Source of the DNA: a bacterium
Lineage (GTDB): Bacteria > Patescibacteriota > Saccharimonadia > Saccharimonadales > UBA4665
DNA: 40,118 nt
Direction of reading: 5' to 3'
Assembly (NCBI GenBank): GCA_021850365.1
Contig: JAJZMH010000009.1
Span: 1-40,118 of the forward strand
This document shows positions 5,884 to 26,310 of the stretch, one piece after another (positions within the stretch are counted from its first letter, which is position 1; each line of letters starts with the position of its first letter). A program made the position numbers and the translations under genes. The notes below the pieces were generated by a model that had not been told where the DNA came from, did no database searches, and saw only the letters and a program-made list of their open reading frames with translations.

Positions 5884-8382
5884 TTATTTTTTGACAGTTA
5901 GTTCTTTTACTTCATTAGTAATAGAGTAAACAAGTTGATTATTTTTAGAACTAATTTTTAAAATATCTGCATATTTAATGTTATCTTTTAATATTAGATT
6001 GGCAATGTAGTCCTCAATAGTTGATTCGATTAGTCTTCTAAGAGGTCTAACTCCATTTTTTGGTTCGTACCCATTATTTAAAAGGTAATCTTTAGCTTTT
6101 TTATCTACTTCAATAATTATACCCTGTTTATTTAAGCGGAAGTTAATTTGCTCAATTTGAAGATCAATAATTTTATAGATAGTATCTTTAGATAAGTTCT
6201 TAAAGACTATAACCTTATCGATACGATTAAGTAGCTCTGGTCGTAATATTTTCTTTAGTTCCTTCATACTACTAGCTTCATTTTTAATATAAAGTTTTTC
6301 AAGGTCTAAATTGAGATTTTGATTGAATCCAAGACTACCTTCTTTTTGAAGTTTTTCTGCACCAATATTTGAAGTTAAAATAATTATTGTGTTTTTAAAG
6401 TCTATTTTTCTTCCTTTAGCATCGGTCAGAACACCATCTTCAAGAATTTGTAATAAAACGTTATAGATATCTGGATGAGCTTTTTCAATTTCATCAAATA
6501 AGACTAATGAATATGGTTTTCTTCTAATTTTATCTGTTAAATCTCCTTCGTTTTCATAGCCCACATACCCTGCCGGTGCACCTACTAATCGAGCAACATT
6601 ATGATGTTCACTAAATTCACTCATGTCAATTTTAATTAAACTTTTTTCTGATCCAAAATATTCTTCTGCGAGAATACGTGCAAGTTCGGTTTTACCTACT
6701 CCAGTAGGTCCCATGAAAATAAATGAACCTATTGGCCTGTTTGGATTAGCAATTCCTGATCGATTACGTTTGATGGCTTTTACTACTTCATCAATGGCAT
6801 GTTTTTGTCCTAATACTTTTTGAGCTAGGATTTGGTCTAGTTTAAGGATGTATTTTGCTTCAGATTTAATAACTTTAGCAACTGGAATACCTGTTATTCT
6901 AGAGACTACTTTTGCAATGTCGTCTGAGCTAAGCACTAGTTGATCTTTATGCTGATTATCTGTTTTGATTAACTTAATTTGTTCAAGTATCCTTGAGGCT
7001 TCAGTTTTATATTTGGCAGCTAATTCATAGTTCTGATTATCTACAGCGTCATCAATATTAAAGTTAATTATTTTTAATTCTTTTTCTAGTTTTCTAGCCT
7101 CAGGATTTGATTTAATTTTATCTATCCTTAAATTTGCTGATGCTTCATCTAGTAAATCGATTGCTTTATCCGGCATATACCTTTCAGTTAAATATCTCCG
7201 GGCGAATTCGACGGTATCAATTAAGACTTCTTCTGGAATCTTAATTCCATGAAAATTCTCGTAATGTTTAACTAATCCTTTTAGAATTTGGACAGTTTCC
7301 TCAGGAGTTGGTTCATCAACATCAATAGGCTGGAATCTTCGTTCTAGGGCTGAATCTTTCTCAATATATTTAGTATACTCATCCCTTGTTGTTGCTCCAA
7401 TTAACTGAATTGTTTTCCTGGCTAACGCTGGTTTTAGGATATTTCCGGCATCCATTGAACCTTCAGCCGACCCTGCTCCTATAAGTAGATGAATTTCGTC
7501 TATAAATGCTATTATATTTTTATTTTTTTCAAGTTCATCGATTACTTTTTTGAGCCTCTCTTCAAATTCACCTCTATATTTAGTACCCGCTATCATTGCA
7601 GCTAAGTCTAAGACAAAGATCTTTTTATCTAATAAGCTCTCAGGAACATTCTCGGCAATTATTTTTTGAGCAAGTCCTTCAACAATAGCTGTTTTACCAA
7701 CACCTGGCTCACCAATTAGAACTGGGTTATTCTTTAACCTTCGATTTAAGATGGTTATGATTCGTCTTAATTCATTTTCTCTTCCAACTAGAGGATCTAA
7801 TTTATTGTTTTTGGCTTTTTCAGTTAGATCTATACCGTAACTATTTAATGCCGATTCTCTATTTTTTAATCCTTGACTCTTGTATTTCGAGAATCCAGCT
7901 AAATTATTAACTAAATGTTGATGATTAATAAATCTACCTACATTATTTAAAAGTGTGTCTACATCAACGTGCATATCTTTAAGCAGTAGTGTGCCTCTAG
8001 AGCTTTTCTGACTTAAAATACTATATAAAATATGTTCAGTTCCAGTTAATTCTTGATTTAATTCTTGAGCTACTTCATAAGCAGTCCTTAAGGTTAATTT
8101 AGCTGTTGCACTTAGGCCTTTTGCACCAATATTAGATTTATTCGCACCAGGACTTAAATTCTCTTTAACCTTAACTTTATCTATTGCTATGCCAAAATCT
8201 AGAAGTAATTTAGAAGCCGTTGAATCTTTAATTTGTAATATTCCTAGTAGTAAATGTTCCGTACCAATATAGGCACTGCCCATTTCGTTTGCCAGGCTAT
8301 CTGAAATTCTTAAACTTTCCCTAGCATTTAAAGTCAAATGGCTTAAAAACTCATTAAAGATTGGATTATTTTCTGGTAGCAT
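5884..8382 (-). CDS. clpC: ATP-dependent Clp protease ATPase subunit ClpC
   Basis: An Hsp100 unfoldase that feeds ClpP or refolds proteins. The 832 residues comprise a double Clp N-domain (about 5-150), AAA-1 with Walker A GEPGVGKT (224-231), a short middle region with a UVR-like motif (DNQNYELAAKYK, about 444-455), AAA-2 with GPTGVGKTE near 560, and the C-terminal D2 small domain. The short UVR-type middle domain, not a long coiled coil, favours ClpC over ClpB. The ATG at 8382 follows AAGGAA (8388-8393), a good Shine-Dalgarno site. A perfect CIRCE operator lies just upstream, so HrcA heat-shock repression is expected. radA follows in the same direction. Confidence 0.95.
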   Translation of the reverse strand: MLPENNPIFNEFLSHLTLNARESLRISDSLANEMGSAYIGTEHLLLGILQIKDSTASKLLLDFGIAIDKVKVKENLSPGANKSNIGAKGLSATAKLTLRTAYEVAQELNQELTGTEHILYSILSQKSSRGTLLLKDMHVDVDTLLNNVGRFINHQHLVNNLAGFSKYKSQGLKNRESALNSYGIDLTEKAKNNKLDPLVGRENELRRIITILNRRLKNNPVLIGEPGVGKTAIVEGLAQKIIAENVPESLLDKKIFVLDLAAMIAGTKYRGEFEERLKKVIDELEKNKNIIAFIDEIHLLIGAGSAEGSMDAGNILKPALARKTIQLIGATTRDEYTKYIEKDSALERRFQPIDVDEPTPEETVQILKGLVKHYENFHGIKIPEEVLIDTVEFARRYLTERYMPDKAIDLLDEASANLRIDKIKSNPEARKLEKELKIINFNIDDAVDNQNYELAAKYKTEASRILEQIKLIKTDNQHKDQLVLSSDDIAKVVSRITGIPVAKVIKSEAKYILKLDQILAQKVLGQKHAIDEVVKAIKRNRSGIANPNRPIGSFIFMGPTGVGKTELARILAEEYFGSEKSLIKIDMSEFSEHHNVARLVGAPAGYVGYENEGDLTDKIRRKPYSLVLFDEIEKAHPDIYNVLLQILEDGVLTDAKGRKIDFKNTIIILTSNIGAEKLQKEGSLGFNQNLNLDLEKLYIKNEASSMKELKKILRPELLNRIDKVIVFKNLSKDTIYKIIDLQIEQINFRLNKQGIIIEVDKKAKDYLLNNGYEPKNGVRPLRRLIESTIEDYIANLILKDNIKYADILKISSKNNQLVYSITNEVKELTVKK

Positions 8383-8420: not shown

Positions 8421-8450
8421 AGAATAATACATTTAGCACTCGGATGTCAA
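8421..8450 (-). promoter_or_regulatory. clpC promoter overlapping CIRCE
   Basis: On the minus strand TTGACA (8445-8450), an 18-nt spacer and TATTCT (8421-8426) form a plausible promoter. The -35 box sits exactly inside the 9-nt CIRCE spacer, so a bound repressor would cover it. The predicted leader is about 30 nt and includes the AAGGAA ribosome-binding site. Confidence 0.6.
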
Positions 8451-8459
8451 GAGTGCTAA
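8433..8459. promoter_or_regulatory. CIRCE operator (HrcA binding site)
   Basis: TTAGCACTC (8433-8441), nine spacer bases and GAGTGCTAA (8451-8459) are a full-identity match to the known CIRCE consensus bound by the heat-shock repressor HrcA. It begins right after the nusA stop codon and lies about 50 nt upstream of the clpC start. HrcA itself is not in this window. Confidence 0.95.
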
Positions 8460-9605
8460 TTATTGATCTTGTTCATTGATTGCGTCAAGTAGAGAACTTT
8501 CTAGATCAGATTTTTTCTTTAGTTTTGGAGTAATCGGTTTAGGTTCAGGAACTGTCGCCTTATTTTTAGTATCATCAATAATATCCATTTCATAACCTAC
8601 CAACTTAGAAGCTAATCGAACATTCTGACCACCTTTACCAATAGCAATGCTTAGTTGATCATCGTTAACATAAACTTTAATATTTTTAGACTTTTGATCA
8701 ATTTCTATCTTATTGATTTGAGTTGGACTGAGAGCATTTTGAACTAATTCTTTTATGTCATCACTAAAAACAAGAATATCTATTTTTTCTTGCTCACCAA
8801 TTTCACTCATAACAGCGTTAACTCTAATTCCATGACCTCCAACAAATGTTCCTACTGGATCTACTCCGTGAACATTAGATTTTACGGCTATTTTAGTTCG
8901 AACACCAGCTTCTCGAGCAATTGCTTTTATTTCAACAGCTTTGCTTTCCATTTCCGGAACCTCATTTTCAAATAATTTTTGGATAAATTCGACAGAGCCT
9001 CTAGAAACAACTAGTTGCGGACCCCTAACATCTTTTTCGATACTTTTAACTAAAACTTTTACTCGTTGACCAGGATACAAATATTCACCTTGGATTTGCT
9101 CGCTTCGAGGCATTATTGCCTGTACGCGCCCAAGGTCGATTTTAACTAGTCCATTTTCGATTCGTGAAACATTTCCATTCGCAATCGTACCTAGCTTATG
9201 CTCAAATTCAGAAAAGAGGATTTCTTTCTCAGCTTCTCTTAGTCTTTGAAGTATTACTTGTTTAGCTGTTTGAGCAGCTACTCTACCAAATCTAGAAATA
9301 TTTTCATTGACATTAACAAATTCACCACTTTTAATATCTTTTTGAATATTCTTAGCATCACTTAGACTAATTTGGTACGCAGGATCTTCAACATTATCTA
9401 CAACTTCTTTATTAACAATTATCTTAATATCTCCAGTATTAGGGTTAAAAATGACTTTAATCTCTTGGTCATTATCTCCAAAATCTTTTTTATAGGCAGC
9501 GATGATAGCTTGTTCAAGGATATCTTTAACTACATCCTCATCTAAGTTTTTTTCTTCAGCAATTGATCTAATTGCGACGGCCAATTGTTTTATATCTAAG
9601 TCCAT
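8460..9605 (-). CDS. nusA: Transcription termination/antitermination protein NusA
   Basis: NusA binds RNA polymerase and nascent RNA and modulates pausing, termination and antitermination. The 381 residues show the N-terminal NusA domain, an S1 domain (about 130-200, with NGLVKIDLGRVQAIMPRSE) and two KH domains (VGGHGIRVNAVMSEI, then IAIGKGGQNVRLASKL near 320). It stops soon after KH2 with a charged tail and lacks the acidic repeats of the E. coli protein, as is usual outside Proteobacteria. The ATG at 9605 is preceded by AAGGAGAG, a strong Shine-Dalgarno site. The leader contains a small hairpin. It is upstream of clpC but clpC has its own promoter. Confidence 0.96.
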   Translation of the reverse strand: MDLDIKQLAVAIRSIAEEKNLDEDVVKDILEQAIIAAYKKDFGDNDQEIKVIFNPNTGDIKIIVNKEVVDNVEDPAYQISLSDAKNIQKDIKSGEFVNVNENISRFGRVAAQTAKQVILQRLREAEKEILFSEFEHKLGTIANGNVSRIENGLVKIDLGRVQAIMPRSEQIQGEYLYPGQRVKVLVKSIEKDVRGPQLVVSRGSVEFIQKLFENEVPEMESKAVEIKAIAREAGVRTKIAVKSNVHGVDPVGTFVGGHGIRVNAVMSEIGEQEKIDILVFSDDIKELVQNALSPTQINKIEIDQKSKNIKVYVNDDQLSIAIGKGGQNVRLASKLVGYEMDIIDDTKNKATVPEPKPITPKLKKKSDLESSLLDAINEQDQ

Positions 9606-9627
9606 CTTAATCTCTCCTTAATTTAAA

Positions 9628-9651
9628 AATTCCGACTATCATGCCGGAATT
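9628..9651 (-). promoter_or_regulatory. Hairpin in the nusA leader
   Basis: AATTCCG (9628-9634) and CGGAATT (9645-9651) can form a 7-bp stem with a 10-nt loop in the nusA mRNA leader, ending 22 nt before the start codon. It has no U-run, so it does not look like a terminator. Autoregulation of nusA is known in other bacteria, but nothing here shows it. Confidence 0.35.
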
Positions 9652-9666
9652 AACAGTATATTTTAT

Positions 9667-9695
9667 AGTATATATGGAATAATTAAATATGTAAA
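9667..9695 (-). promoter_or_regulatory. Promoter for nusA
   Basis: On the minus strand TTTACA (9690-9695), a 17-nt spacer and TATACT (9667-9672), each one base from consensus. The predicted leader is about 55 nt and includes the hairpin at 9628-9651 and the Shine-Dalgarno site. Confidence 0.55.
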
Positions 9696-9700
9696 ATTAT

Positions 9701-9711
9701 TATGATAAAAT
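9701..9711 (+). promoter_or_regulatory. -10 region for pepN, leaderless layout
   Basis: TATGAT (9701-9706) and overlapping TAAAAT (9706-9711) are candidate -10 boxes. The second ends 7 nt before the pepN ATG. No Shine-Dalgarno site precedes the gene and no clear -35 is seen. The region overlaps the divergent nusA promoter. Confidence 0.4.
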
Positions 9712-9718
9712 ATTTTTA

Positions 9719-22179: not shown

Positions 22180-23597
22180 ATTTCATCCTCAATTTGGTTA
22201 CAAAAATCTAATAATTGATTATCCTTAGTAATTGGAGCCATAATTTGTAGTCCAACTGGTAAGTTATCAACCATACCAACTGGCATACTGATTGCTGGGA
22301 TACCAACTAAATTAGCCGCTACAGTCATAATATCATTTAAATACATTTCCAATTTAGAATTGCTTTTCTCGCCTATTTTAAAAGCTGTATCTGGAACCGT
22401 TGGTCCTAATAAGAAATCATAGCTATTAAAAACTTGATTAAAATCATTAATTAATTTTGTTCTCACGGTTTGTGCCTTTTTATAGTAAGCATCATAATAA
22501 CCACTACTCAAAACGTATGTACCAATCATTATTCGTGTTTTGGCTTCATCGCCAAATCCATTTGTTCGAGATTTTAAATAACTCTCATCTAAATTTTGGG
22601 CATCTGGATAACTATATCCAAATCTTTGCCCATCATATCTACTTAAGTTAGAAGCAATTTCGGCAGGACATAAAACATAATAGACTGCTAAGGCTAGATC
22701 TAGACTTGGAATGCTTACTTCTTGAACATTAACTCCTAAAAATTTTAACTTAGCAATACTAGATAATATAGTCTCCTTAACCTTAGGATTGATATTATCC
22801 GATAAATATTCTTTAATTATGCCTACTTTAATTGATTTAAAATCTATCTTTTCTAGGTTACTTGTAATCCTATATTGATCGGGTAAAGTTGTGCTATCTA
22901 GTGGATCATTGCCGGAAATTACACTACTTACTCTTTTAGAATCGGAGACATTTTTAGTAAATGTACCAATTGTATCTAAACTACTTCCCATGGCCACAAC
23001 TCCAGATCTACTCACCATCCCATAACTAGGTTTAAAGCCAACTACCCCGCAAAAACTAGCTGGTTGACGGATCGATCCACCTGTATCCGTACCCAAACTA
23101 AAGGGAACAAGATCTAGGGCAACGCTGGCTGCTGAGCCTCCCGAACTTCCACCTGCCACTCGATTTATGTCATGAGGATTTTTTGTTATAAAGAAATCAC
23201 TGTTTTCGGTACTTGATCCATGAGCAAAAGCATCCATATTCGCTTTTGCAACGCAAATGGCACCCTCATCTTCAAGTCGGTTAATTGCACTAGCCTGATA
23301 AGGGGCATAAAAGCCTTTTAGAATATTAGAGGCTGCAGTAGTTTGAACGTCAAATACTAAAAAATTATCTTTAGCTATAAATGGAACACCGGCTAATATT
23401 CCTACTTTTTTATTGGCTTTAATATCTTGATCTATTTTATTAGCTTTATCTAGGGCTTCTTTATCTAAGGTCGAGATTATGGCGTTATACTGACTATTTT
23501 TTTGAATATTATCTAGGGCTAATTGAACATTTAAAAGTGCACTATTTTCACCACTTAAAACAGCACTAACAATATCGTCTATCTTGGGCCAACTCAT
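22170..23597 (-). CDS. gatA: Asp-tRNA(Asn)/Glu-tRNA(Gln) amidotransferase subunit A
   Basis: The amidase subunit that releases ammonia from glutamine for GatB. The amidase signature is intact: the catalytic Lys lies in GVPFIAKDNF, and GGSSGGSAASVALDLVPFSLGTDTGGSIRQPASFCG carries the Ser-cis-Ser-Lys catalytic serines. At 475 residues it is full length. Its ATG overlaps the gatC stop (ATGA), indicating translational coupling. Confidence 0.97.
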   Translation of the reverse strand: MSWPKIDDIVSAVLSGENSALLNVQLALDNIQKNSQYNAIISTLDKEALDKANKIDQDIKANKKVGILAGVPFIAKDNFLVFDVQTTAASNILKGFYAPYQASAINRLEDEGAICVAKANMDAFAHGSSTENSDFFITKNPHDINRVAGGSSGGSAASVALDLVPFSLGTDTGGSIRQPASFCGVVGFKPSYGMVSRSGVVAMGSSLDTIGTFTKNVSDSKRVSSVISGNDPLDSTTLPDQYRITSNLEKIDFKSIKVGIIKEYLSDNINPKVKETILSSIAKLKFLGVNVQEVSIPSLDLALAVYYVLCPAEIASNLSRYDGQRFGYSYPDAQNLDESYLKSRTNGFGDEAKTRIMIGTYVLSSGYYDAYYKKAQTVRTKLINDFNQVFNSYDFLLGPTVPDTAFKIGEKSNSKLEMYLNDIMTVAANLVGIPAISMPVGMVDNLPVGLQIMAPITKDNQLLDFCNQIEDEICL

Positions 23598-23890
23598 TCA
23601 ATTACTCTTTTAACTTGTATAAAATTATCCTTAACTTTGGGTACATTTTCTAGTAGTGATTTTGGATCATATCCATATTCAATTCTTTGATCTTCTCTTG
23701 TAATATTATTAAGTCCGTTAACAGAAATTGTTGGATCTAAATTAGAAGTATCAACAGAATTTAGTTTTTGAACGTATTCAATAATTTCACTTAATTCTTC
23801 AGAATATTTTGAAATTTCATCTTTTGTTAGCTCTAATTTAGCTAATTTAGCAATTTTAATAACATCTTCCTTAGTTATCGCTTTGTCCAT
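23594..23890 (-). CDS. gatC: Asp-tRNA(Asn)/Glu-tRNA(Gln) amidotransferase subunit C
   Basis: The small subunit that wraps around GatA and stabilises the complex. The 98 residues match GatC: ITKEDVIKIAKLAKLELTKDEISKYSEELSEIIEYVQKLNSVDT, then an extended segment ending LLENVPKVKDNFIQVKRVIE. It is the first gene of the operon. The promoter CTGACA-18-TATAAT ends 10 nt before the ATG, predicting a nearly leaderless mRNA. It stops with TGA inside ATGA. Confidence 0.96.
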   Translation of the reverse strand: MDKAITKEDVIKIAKLAKLELTKDEISKYSEELSEIIEYVQKLNSVDTSNLDPTISVNGLNNITREDQRIEYGYDPKSLLENVPKVKDNFIQVKRVIE

Positions 23891-23900
23891 ATTTAAATCT

Positions 23901-23930
23901 ATTATACAAAATTTAGGTCTAATTTGTCAG
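23901..23930 (-). promoter_or_regulatory. Promoter for gatC operon, leaderless layout
   Basis: On the minus strand CTGACA (23925-23930), an 18-nt spacer and TATAAT (23901-23906). Ten bases separate the -10 box from the gatC ATG. It lies back to back with the plus-strand promoter at 23938-23965. Confidence 0.65.
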
Positions 23931-23937
23931 TATTTTA

Positions 23938-23965
23938 TTGACAATAAAGATATAAGATCTAATAT
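23938..23965 (+). promoter_or_regulatory. Promoter for the structured leader and 71-residue protein
   Basis: TTGACA (23938-23943, perfect), a 16-nt spacer and TAATAT (23960-23965). Transcription would start near 23972, just before the first helix of the leader. Confidence 0.55.
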
Positions 23966-23971
23966 ATAAAA

Positions 23972-24124
23972 TATGTATAGCTTAACTAGAGAACTAATTT
24001 CTAGACTCTTATGCCTTAGACTACTAGGGCTGTACTTTAGTTAAGCTAGTCTCCATCAATAAAAATATAAAGTACAGCCACCAAATCTTAAAGAGACTAG
24101 TAATATTTTAAATAAGGAGAAAAA
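23972..24124 (+). ncRNA. Structured 5' leader, candidate cis-regulatory RNA
   Basis: The roughly 150-nt leader holds three perfect complementary pairs. Helix A is 23978-23988 with 24038-24048 (11 bp). Helix B is 24028-24039 with 24068-24079 (12 bp, half G-C). Helix C is 24046-24053 with 24093-24100 (8 bp). The arms interleave, so A and C can coexist after slight trimming, while B crosses both and shares bases with A. This gives either a pseudoknot or two alternative states. Bases 24050-24054 (TCTCC) can pair either with helix C's 3' arm or with the Shine-Dalgarno GGAGA at 24116-24120. I do not recognise any known riboswitch class. Boundaries are inferred from the promoter and start codon. Confidence 0.55.
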
Positions 24125-24340
24125 ATGGAAAAAGGATATGAAAATAGTCCAAATAACCCAATTGATTATAGTGCAATTATTAATTTCTTAGAGGAAAATA
24201 ATTATATTATGAAGGATATTTTAGAAAATTTTGATCAAACTGGATTAGGAATAATTGACTCAGAACAATTTAATAAATTCGTTTATAACGCATTAAAAAT
24301 ACAAGAAGAACGAAATAATTTTAATAATAGACCAGCTTAA
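24125..24340 (+). CDS. Small acidic protein with a degenerate EF-hand-like loop
   Basis: A 71-residue protein I cannot assign to a named family. Residues 37-48 (DQTGLGIIDSEQ) resemble an EF-hand loop: Asp at position 1, Gly at 6, Ile at 8 and Asp at 9. However, position 5 is Leu and position 12 is Gln, not Glu. Helix-like flanks (YSAIINFLEENNYIMKDILENF and FNKFVYNALKIQEERNNF) fit a helix-loop-helix. No signal peptide or membrane helix is present. AAGGAGA at 24114-24120 gives a strong ribosome-binding site 4 nt from the ATG. The gene has its own promoter and a long structured leader, and its stop overlaps the convergent uvrB end by 3 bp. Calcium binding is uncertain. Confidence 0.8.
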   Translation: MEKGYENSPNNPIDYSAIINFLEENNYIMKDILENFDQTGLGIIDSEQFNKFVYNALKIQEERNNFNNRPA

Positions 24341-26310
24341 GAATTTAGATCTTTAATTAAATCCCTAAGTTTTGCTGCTTCTTCAAACTGAAGATTTTTT
24401 GCAGCAAATTCCATCTGGGTGTTTAATTGATTAATAATGTTCGATTTTTCGTTTTCGGTTAGTTTTAATTTATTGAAGTTTATAAATTGATCATTTTTCT
24501 TAGGGTTTAGGATAGAACTATCAAATAAGTTAGGTTTATGATTACTTTTGGTAATGCTTGTTGGCGTTATAGAGTGTTTGTTGTTAAATTCAGATTGAAT
24601 TTTCCTTCTATAATTTGTCTTATCTAATGCATTTTGAATGCTTTTGGTAATAACATCGGCAAACATGATTACTTTCCCATCAATATGTCTTGCTGCCCTT
24701 CCAATTGTCTGGATTAAAGCTTGCTCGCTCCTAAGGAAACCTTCTTTATCGGCATCAAGAATAATAACTAGGGATACTTCAGGAAGATCAAGGCCTTCTC
24801 TTAATAGATTAATACCTACTAATACGTCATAGACTCCTTTTCGTAAATCATCGAGTATACCGGTTCTATCTAAAGTATCAATATCACTATGGATATAAGC
24901 TACTTTAAATTTTAGATTCTCTAAATATTCACTTAAATTCTCTGACATTCGCTTAGTTAATGTTGTTATGAGAACTCTTTGGTTTTTGGCTATTCTTTTC
25001 TTAATTTCTGATATTATTTTATCAATTTGATTTGACGTTGGTAGGATTTCTATTTCAGGATCTATTAATCCAGTTGGTCTAATAATTTGTTCTACTACCT
25101 GACTACTTCTAGAAAGTTCAAAATCTGCTGGTGTAGCGCTTACGTATATAACTCTATTGATATGTTTTTGAAATTCAATAAATGTTAAAGGTCTATTATC
25201 TAGGGCACTAGGAAGTCTAAAACCGTAATCGACCAATACTTTTTTACGAGCTAAATCACCATTATACATACCTCTTATTTGGGGAATAGTCATATGTGAT
25301 TCATCGATAAACAAAAGGAAGTCATCAGGGAAATAATCTAATAAAGTTGCTGGTTGAACTCCTGGTTCACGAGAAGTTAAATACCGGGAATAATTTTCAA
25401 TTCCTTTAACAAAACCTATTTCTTGAAGCATTTCTAAATCAAAATTAGTTTTTTGTTCTAATCTTTGTGCTTCGAGTAATTTATTATTTTCTTTAAAATA
25501 TTTTAATCTAGTTTCTAATTCAGCTTTAATTTGACTAGTAGCTATTTCCATTCTTTGTTTAGGTGTAACAAAGTGAGAACTTGGATAGATATCCAGAAAC
25601 TGAAGATTGGCTATTAATTCACCAGTAATTGGATTAAATGAACTTATTTTTTCTATCTGATCACCAAAAAAATGAATCCGGTATCCCAAATCATCACTAG
25701 CTAAGAAAATATCAACAATATCCCCTCTTACCCTAAACGTACCTCTTTTAAAATCTAAATCATTTCGTTGATATTGAATATCTGTTAACTGTCTTAACAA
25801 TTTATCTCTATTTTTTTGCTCATTAAGCTTAATATTAATTTTTAAATCTGAATAATTTTCTACCGAGCCTATTCCATATATACAACTTACGCTGGCTACA
25901 ATAATAACGTCTTTTCTTGATAATAAATCATCCGTTGCGCGGTGTCTTAATCGATCAATCTCATCATTAATCTTTGAGTCTTTTTCAATATAAGTATCCG
26001 AACTCGGAATATATGCCTCTGGTTGATAATAATCAAAATAGGAAACAAAATAATTGACTGCAGAATTTGGAAAGAATTGTTTAAATTCAAAATATAATTG
26101 AGCAGCTAGTGTTTTGTTATGGCTTATTATTAAAGTAGGTTTATTATACTTCTTTATAATATTAGCCATTGAAAAGGTTTTTCCTGAACCCGTTACTCCA
26201 AGTAAAGTTTGTTCTTTATACCCTTTGTTTAAACCATCTAACAATTGAGTAACGGCTTTAGGCTGATCACCAGCTAAATTAAAATCTGCTTTTAAATCAA
26301 AACTTGACAT
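24337..26310 (-). CDS. uvrB: Excinuclease ABC subunit B
   Basis: The damage-verifying helicase-like subunit of nucleotide excision repair. Walker A GVTGSGKT is at 38-45. The damage-clamping beta-hairpin region YFDYYQPEAYIPSSDTYIEKD follows, then helicase motifs (FIDESHMT, YVSATPADFE, LLREGLDLPEVSLV, QTIGRAARH) and a C-terminal UVR motif (FAAKNLQFEEAAKLRDLI, about 635-652) for UvrA/UvrC contact. At 657 residues it is full length. The -10 TATACT (26321-26326) lies 10 nt before the ATG and no Shine-Dalgarno site is seen. Confidence 0.97.
   Translation of the reverse strand: MSSFDLKADFNLAGDQPKAVTQLLDGLNKGYKEQTLLGVTGSGKTFSMANIIKKYNKPTLIISHNKTLAAQLYFEFKQFFPNSAVNYFVSYFDYYQPEAYIPSSDTYIEKDSKINDEIDRLRHRATDDLLSRKDVIIVASVSCIYGIGSVENYSDLKINIKLNEQKNRDKLLRQLTDIQYQRNDLDFKRGTFRVRGDIVDIFLASDDLGYRIHFFGDQIEKISSFNPITGELIANLQFLDIYPSSHFVTPKQRMEIATSQIKAELETRLKYFKENNKLLEAQRLEQKTNFDLEMLQEIGFVKGIENYSRYLTSREPGVQPATLLDYFPDDFLLFIDESHMTIPQIRGMYNGDLARKKVLVDYGFRLPSALDNRPLTFIEFQKHINRVIYVSATPADFELSRSSQVVEQIIRPTGLIDPEIEILPTSNQIDKIISEIKKRIAKNQRVLITTLTKRMSENLSEYLENLKFKVAYIHSDIDTLDRTGILDDLRKGVYDVLVGINLLREGLDLPEVSLVIILDADKEGFLRSEQALIQTIGRAARHIDGKVIMFADVITKSIQNALDKTNYRRKIQSEFNNKHSITPTSITKSNHKPNLFDSSILNPKKNDQFINFNKLKLTENEKSNIINQLNTQMEFAAKNLQFEEAAKLRDLIKDLNS

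Follow-up and report, generated by a model that had tools for sequence, protein, structure and literature searches.

The region at positions 23972-24124, directly upstream of a gene for a 71-residue protein, carries three perfect helices that compete for a single strand, and this competition is non-random, far beyond what chance would give. From its predicted folds, the region is read here, tentatively and at somewhat less than even confidence, as a cis-acting, ribosome-operated translational attenuator, in which translation of a short upstream open reading frame (uORF, or leader peptide) would act on the downstream gene. All positions refer to the window, the whole stretch of 40,118 nt that was analysed, which is one contig (32% GC) of a 653-kb host genome assembled in 35 contigs and 91% complete. 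Its small size, its gene content and relatives with genomes of 0.5-1.6 Mb suggest a bacterium of the Candidate Phyla Radiation. The leader lies between gatC (23594-23890, minus strand) and uvrB (24337-26310, minus strand). The features on which the argument depends are as follows.

23938-23965, plus strand: predicted promoter with -35 TTGACA (23938-23943), a 16-nt spacer and -10 TAATAT (23960-23965), a consensus match only, at 10 of 12 positions.
23973-24044, plus strand: candidate leaderless uORF of 23 codons, encoding MYSLTRELISRLLCLRLLGLYFS and then a stop, with its AUG 7 nt past the -10 box and its TAA at 24042-24044.
23978-23988 with 24038-24048, plus strand: helix A, TAGCTTAACTA, 11 bp, perfect.
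24028-24039 with 24068-24079, plus strand: helix B, GGCTGTACTTTA, 12 bp, perfect.
24046-24053 with 24093-24100, plus strand: helix C, CTAGTCTC, 8 bp, perfect.
24028-24053, plus strand: central strand of 26 nt, common to the B 5′ arm, the A 3′ arm and the C 5′ arm, and containing the uORF stop codon.
24050-24054, plus strand: putative anti-Shine-Dalgarno TCTCC, paired with GGAGA (24116-24120) at a probability of about 0.9 in the predicted ground (helix A) state.
24116-24120, plus strand: Shine-Dalgarno (SD) GGAGA, within AAGGAG ahead of the 71-codon gene.
24125-24340, plus strand: gene for the 71-residue protein, ending in a stop that overlaps by 4 nt with that of the convergent uvrB.

The preliminary description had listed three perfect pairs of 11, 12 and 8 bp, with helix B crossing both A and C, and each of these proved exact to the nucleotide. 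The reverse complement of the central strand, GAGACTAGCTTAACTAAAGTACAGCC, is tiled by GAGACTAG, TAGCTTAACTA and TAAAGTACAGCC, and is present in the region as three overlapping pieces, namely the C 3′ arm, the A 5′ arm and the B 3′ arm. On the central strand, A has two bases in common with B (24038-24039) and three with C (24046-24048), so that helix A and full-length B or full-length C are mutually exclusive. Helices B and C, which have no nucleotides in common, could coexist only as a pseudoknot. Of 20,000 sequences obtained by dinucleotide shuffling of 23972-24124, none contained two perfect repeats of at least 11 bp, crossing or not, and only 206 contained even one. Within the 549,870 bases (84%) of the host genome that were covered, this is the sole crossing pair of at least 11 bp in which each arm contains at least 3 G/C; the other crossing pairs, of 10 bp, are confined to a repetitive, adhesin-like coding region. 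That region (L113, 17700-18932) is made of NNTAVGxxALxxNT-like units that reach the contig end, a composition resembling that of a surface adhesin head domain. The folding energy of the leader is modestly unusual (z of -2.0, with 37 of 1000 shuffles equally stable); with a z of only about -2, the signal lies in the repeats and not in overall stability.

The 71-codon gene is clearly coding in its frame: the coding log-odds there are +33 bits, while the other two frames score +0.9 and +3.9. Its Shine-Dalgarno is strong. No significant match to the protein was obtained in Pfam, PHROGs or the PDB, where the best match, a Ca2+-binding protein, stood at a non-significant E of 0.26; together with it, a degenerate EF-hand-like stretch, FDQTGLGIIDSEQF, points weakly to a link with Ca2+. 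Structure prediction was of low confidence (pLDDT 61), and the predicted structure had no fold match. Homologues of the protein at E 0.001 were absent from 99 relatives and from 393 genomes of the order, as well as from the genome contigs, viral contigs, phages and plasmids searched, and in a genome of the same genus a different gene lies upstream of gatC. The leader gave a similar result at the DNA level. Among 93 genomes of the family no homologue with the helices was found, and the best matches inspected were short, either partly promoter-like (GGGCTGTACTT, TATACT) or within coding frames, and did not carry the helices. A 51-nt match of 75% identity in three genomes of one genus was set aside, as it is at chance level and has none of A, B and C. 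Across the same-genus, family and order genomes and the other collections searched, neither the leader nor the protein had a homologue. A tmRNA, considered on account of the ACCA that follows helix B, was likewise discarded, the tmRNA gene being located elsewhere in the genome.

Transcription of the leader is predicted to start near 23972, from what is the only plus-strand promoter-like site within 23800-24450; its -10 box, TAATAT, matches the consensus at only four of six positions. Such a start would place the 5′ end almost at the uORF AUG. Leaderless gene starts, with the -10 box 6-11 nt ahead of the ATG, appear common in the host genome, in keeping with the earlier remark that neighbouring genes have short or no leaders: where the upstream gap is at least 25 nt, 57 of 155 genes have a -10 box located 5-12 nt before the start codon, as opposed to 3 of 57 genes where the gap is below 5 nt, and the modal leaderless spacing from -10 box to start codon is 7 nt. 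The promoters of gatC and of the 71-codon gene diverge, and their -35 boxes together form a dyad, TTGTCA-N9-TGACAA (23924-23944), a possible shared operator. Elsewhere in the window, a CIRCE-type sequence, TTAGCACTC-N9-GAGTGCTAA, is located at about 8433-8459 on the minus strand, ahead of a clp ATPase gene (5884-8382); this putative HrcA operator overlaps a TTGACA box and suggests that the clp gene is under heat-shock control.

The uORF at 23973-24044 had been overlooked in the preliminary description. It spans the 5′ arm of helix A and ends inside the shared central strand, and its peptide, MYSLTRELISRLLCLRLLGLYFS, contains 8 leucines and 3 arginines. The leucine enrichment (8 of 23 residues) has a P of 0.001 before correction for the choice of residue, and six of the eight leucines are within nine codons, interrupted by Cys, Arg and Gly. 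Codon log-odds for the uORF are -3.6 bits, no more coding-like than those of the other frames. About 185 promoter-like sites in the genome are not followed by a longer gene; an AUG at such a spacing is found at about 14 of these, and from these AUGs four open reading frames exceed 20 codons, the candidate uORF among them. A chance AUG at this spacing with 20 or more codons behind it is, on these counts, not especially rare. From these sites, the joint chance of such an AUG together with such a frame is roughly 2%. Given this figure, and with codon statistics lending no support, we infer that translation of the uORF is likely. A short upstream open reading frame that overlaps the competing arms and has a plausible start signal, as expected of an attenuator of this class, appears by its sequence to be in place.

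In the predicted ground state helix A forms with a pairing probability of about 0.96, extends beyond its 11 bp and encloses a hairpin at 24013-24019/24024-24030. The suggestion that TCTCC could act as an anti-SD fits this fold, in which it occupies GGAGA at the probability listed above; the computed cost of opening the SD is 2.3 kcal/mol, so predicted masking in this state is weak. A nested state with helix B was calculated to be 1.6 kcal/mol above the ground state, and in it the SD would be contacted by CUCUUA near 24007-24012 instead. When growth of the transcript was simulated, A formed first, and the A and B states were near-equal in energy with the 3′ end at 24105-24115. Mutually exclusive hairpins, one of which masks a downstream SD, are thus present according to these models. 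The shared strand at 24041-24052 is also complementary at 11 of 12 positions to the end of the 71-codon gene (24329-24340), possibly a long-range competitor or a product of chance. Another gene of the window (8460-9605, minus strand) appears to be of the SD type with a hairpin leader, the region ahead of it (9606-9718) containing a AATTCCGgcatgatagtCGGAATT hairpin followed by T-rich sequence and AAGGAG.

No U-tract follows hairpin A or B on the plus strand, and the one terminator-like match is weak, with a stem at 24013-24030, inside helix A, and a poor tail. Since U-tracts are lacking after the plus-strand hairpins, the output of the leader is more likely SD access, that is translational control, than transcription termination. 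A leucine (amino-acid) transcription attenuator was rejected on the same ground, since none of the alternative hairpins is an intrinsic terminator.

Since the leader opens with an AUG at its predicted 5′ end, and the frame of 23 codons covers the 5′ arm of A and ends in the shared strand, translation of the uORF is the simplest input for the switch, and it probably governs production of the 71-residue protein. How the switch operates, and what triggers it, we infer as follows. The mRNA would begin near 23972, almost at the uORF AUG, and the uORF would be translated as a leaderless message. With no ribosome on the uORF, helix A would form, TCTCC would pair with GGAGA and the ribosome binding site (RBS) of the 71-codon gene would be masked. 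A ribosome on the uORF would prevent formation of A, and the position at which it paused would decide between B (12 bp) and C (8 bp); alternatively, a ribosome at termination would cover the TCTCC strand. Either formation of B or C, or coverage of TCTCC, would leave the RBS more accessible, and slow or stalled translation of the uORF would result in the 71-residue protein being made. Candidate triggers would be leucine shortage, nascent-peptide arrest or drug-induced arrest.

The effect of a ribosome on the fold was modelled with a footprint from P-14 to P+16 and with pseudoknots left out, simplifications that make the codon-by-codon pattern illustrative only. In this model a footprint on codons 1-11 abolishes A and brings B to a probability of 0.98-1.00, on codons 12-17 A is able to re-form, on codons 18-19 C reaches 0.98-1.00, and on codons 22-23 A, B and C are all lost. 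With the ribosome at codons 10-11, 18-19 or 22-23, the SD becomes easier to open in the model, at a cost of 0.2-0.9 instead of 2.3 kcal/mol. At most uORF positions the SD is about as masked in the model as at rest, and at codons 6 and 21 it is more masked.

Leaders with comparable parts have been described in other bacteria, and the proposed mechanism would follow the logic of the leader-peptide attenuators of ermC and toiL. In ermC and ermB (leader peptides ErmCL and ErmBL), a short uORF precedes the gene, a hairpin masks the SD and the fold is set by ribosome position (PMC5118997); the present leader is predicted to share all three, but here the uORF is leaderless and unrelated in sequence, the regulated gene would be an orphan and not one for an rRNA methyltransferase, and stalling is a candidate only. 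In the E. coli toiL-topAI system, the uORF overlaps an RBS-occluding hairpin and ribosomes stalled at several positions relieve repression (PMC12121999). The uORF described here is likewise predicted to overlap a hairpin linked to RBS occlusion; however, the two show no homology, and toiL has been demonstrated experimentally and includes a Rho-dependent step. The leader peptide of Corynebacterium glutamicum ilvBNC has its AUG one nucleotide from the transcription start, contains branched-chain codons and is associated with overlapping hairpins H1-H3 (PMC11857589). The present leader resembles it in having a putatively leaderless leader peptide, codons for a branched-chain residue and overlapping hairpins, but ilvBNC uses a transcription terminator and encodes amino-acid synthesis enzymes, while the present leader lacks a terminator U-tract and appears to act through SD access. 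The mRNA of Sinorhizobium meliloti trpL begins at the leader-peptide AUG (PMC7298713), as is predicted here; trpL, in contrast, is a tryptophan transcription attenuator, with a different sequence and a different output. With riboswitches and pseudoknotted leaders in Rfam the region has in common a pseudoknot-capable leader with an anti-SD arm, but it matches no family.

A rival reading is that the leader is a ligand or ion riboswitch, or a thermosensor-like bistable leader, alternating between an A/anti-SD state and a B/C state, with the short open reading frame incidental. The same competing helices and anti-SD arm would serve such a device, its two nested states are within 1.6 kcal/mol of each other and the uORF has no coding signal. 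As had been noted from the outset, no known riboswitch class is recognisable: Rfam returned no family at the gathering threshold and nothing relevant even at E 10. Known riboswitch classes are widespread, whereas none of the relatives searched carries this element, which disfavours a riboswitch; A would, moreover, be disturbed in any event by a ribosome initiating at the 5′ AUG. We regard this alternative as unlikely. The preliminary description had offered a pseudoknot or a two-state switch, and of these the mutually exclusive layout fits both sequence and folding, but a stable pseudoknot is less well supported. A stable RNA with a pseudoknot of B and either C or A might serve to stabilise the transcript or to bind a protein, for instance the 71-residue protein in an autoregulatory loop; the interleaving of the arms is exact, they lie edge to edge on a single 26-nt strand, B and C do not overlap, and H-type loops of 6, 14 and 13 nt would be sterically possible. 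However, a crude hand sum of B (-16.8), the C duplex (-10.5) and a 5′ hairpin (-5.5), with an assumed penalty near +9 kcal/mol, lies about 8 kcal/mol above the nested ground state, and the three full-length helices cannot form together, A sharing bases with both B and C. A stable pseudoknot is accordingly considered improbable.

That the complementarity is incidental and has no function would agree with the failure to show any conservation and with a folding energy that is modestly unusual, yet the shuffles, none of which reproduced the repeats, and the uniqueness of the arrangement in 550 kb of genome make this quite improbable. The region might instead be a small expressed peptide gene with a structured mRNA, encoding a hydrophobic Leu/Arg-rich 23-mer, possibly type I toxin-like or membrane-associated, next to a separately translated 71-codon gene. 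The Leu-rich hydrophobic sequence with spaced arginines, the leaderless position and a weak antisense promoter-like site (24091-24064) would suit such a gene, but promoter-like sites in the region are no commoner than expected from shuffles (3 found, shuffled mean 4.2), gene order makes the region a leader of the 71-codon gene and no relatives were found; we hold a peptide gene to be very improbable. Least credible is an element acting at the DNA level, such as an integron attC-like recombination site, an operator or a terminator. The arms of helix A contain GCTTAAC and GTTAAGC, a formal match to the attC core boxes RYYYAAC and GTTRRRY, and the site is between divergent promoters. Against this, helix A is continuous and has no unpaired spacer of the attC kind, the host genome has no second copy of the element, no T-run follows the plus-strand hairpins, and B, C and the anti-SD would be left unexplained.

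The translational attenuator proposed above would make the leader an instance, from a single genome, of a style of regulation already known, and no relatives were found to support it. A more specific version, which we consider doubtful, is a three-way switch in which ribosome position would determine which of three partners pairs with the 26-nt strand containing the uORF stop; such a switch would control a small protein specific to its lineage in a bacterium with an ultra-small genome and common leaderless mRNAs. No translational attenuator of this kind in ultra-small-genome bacteria was found in the literature searched. Even if the attenuator reading is wrong, the leader is uniquely structured within a genome where GC-containing hairpins are very scarce. 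If it is right, it would represent gene control by ribosome sensing in a minimal bacterium that uses leaderless mRNAs and whose regulation has hardly been studied, and would offer a handle on the condition that requires an otherwise unclassifiable small protein.
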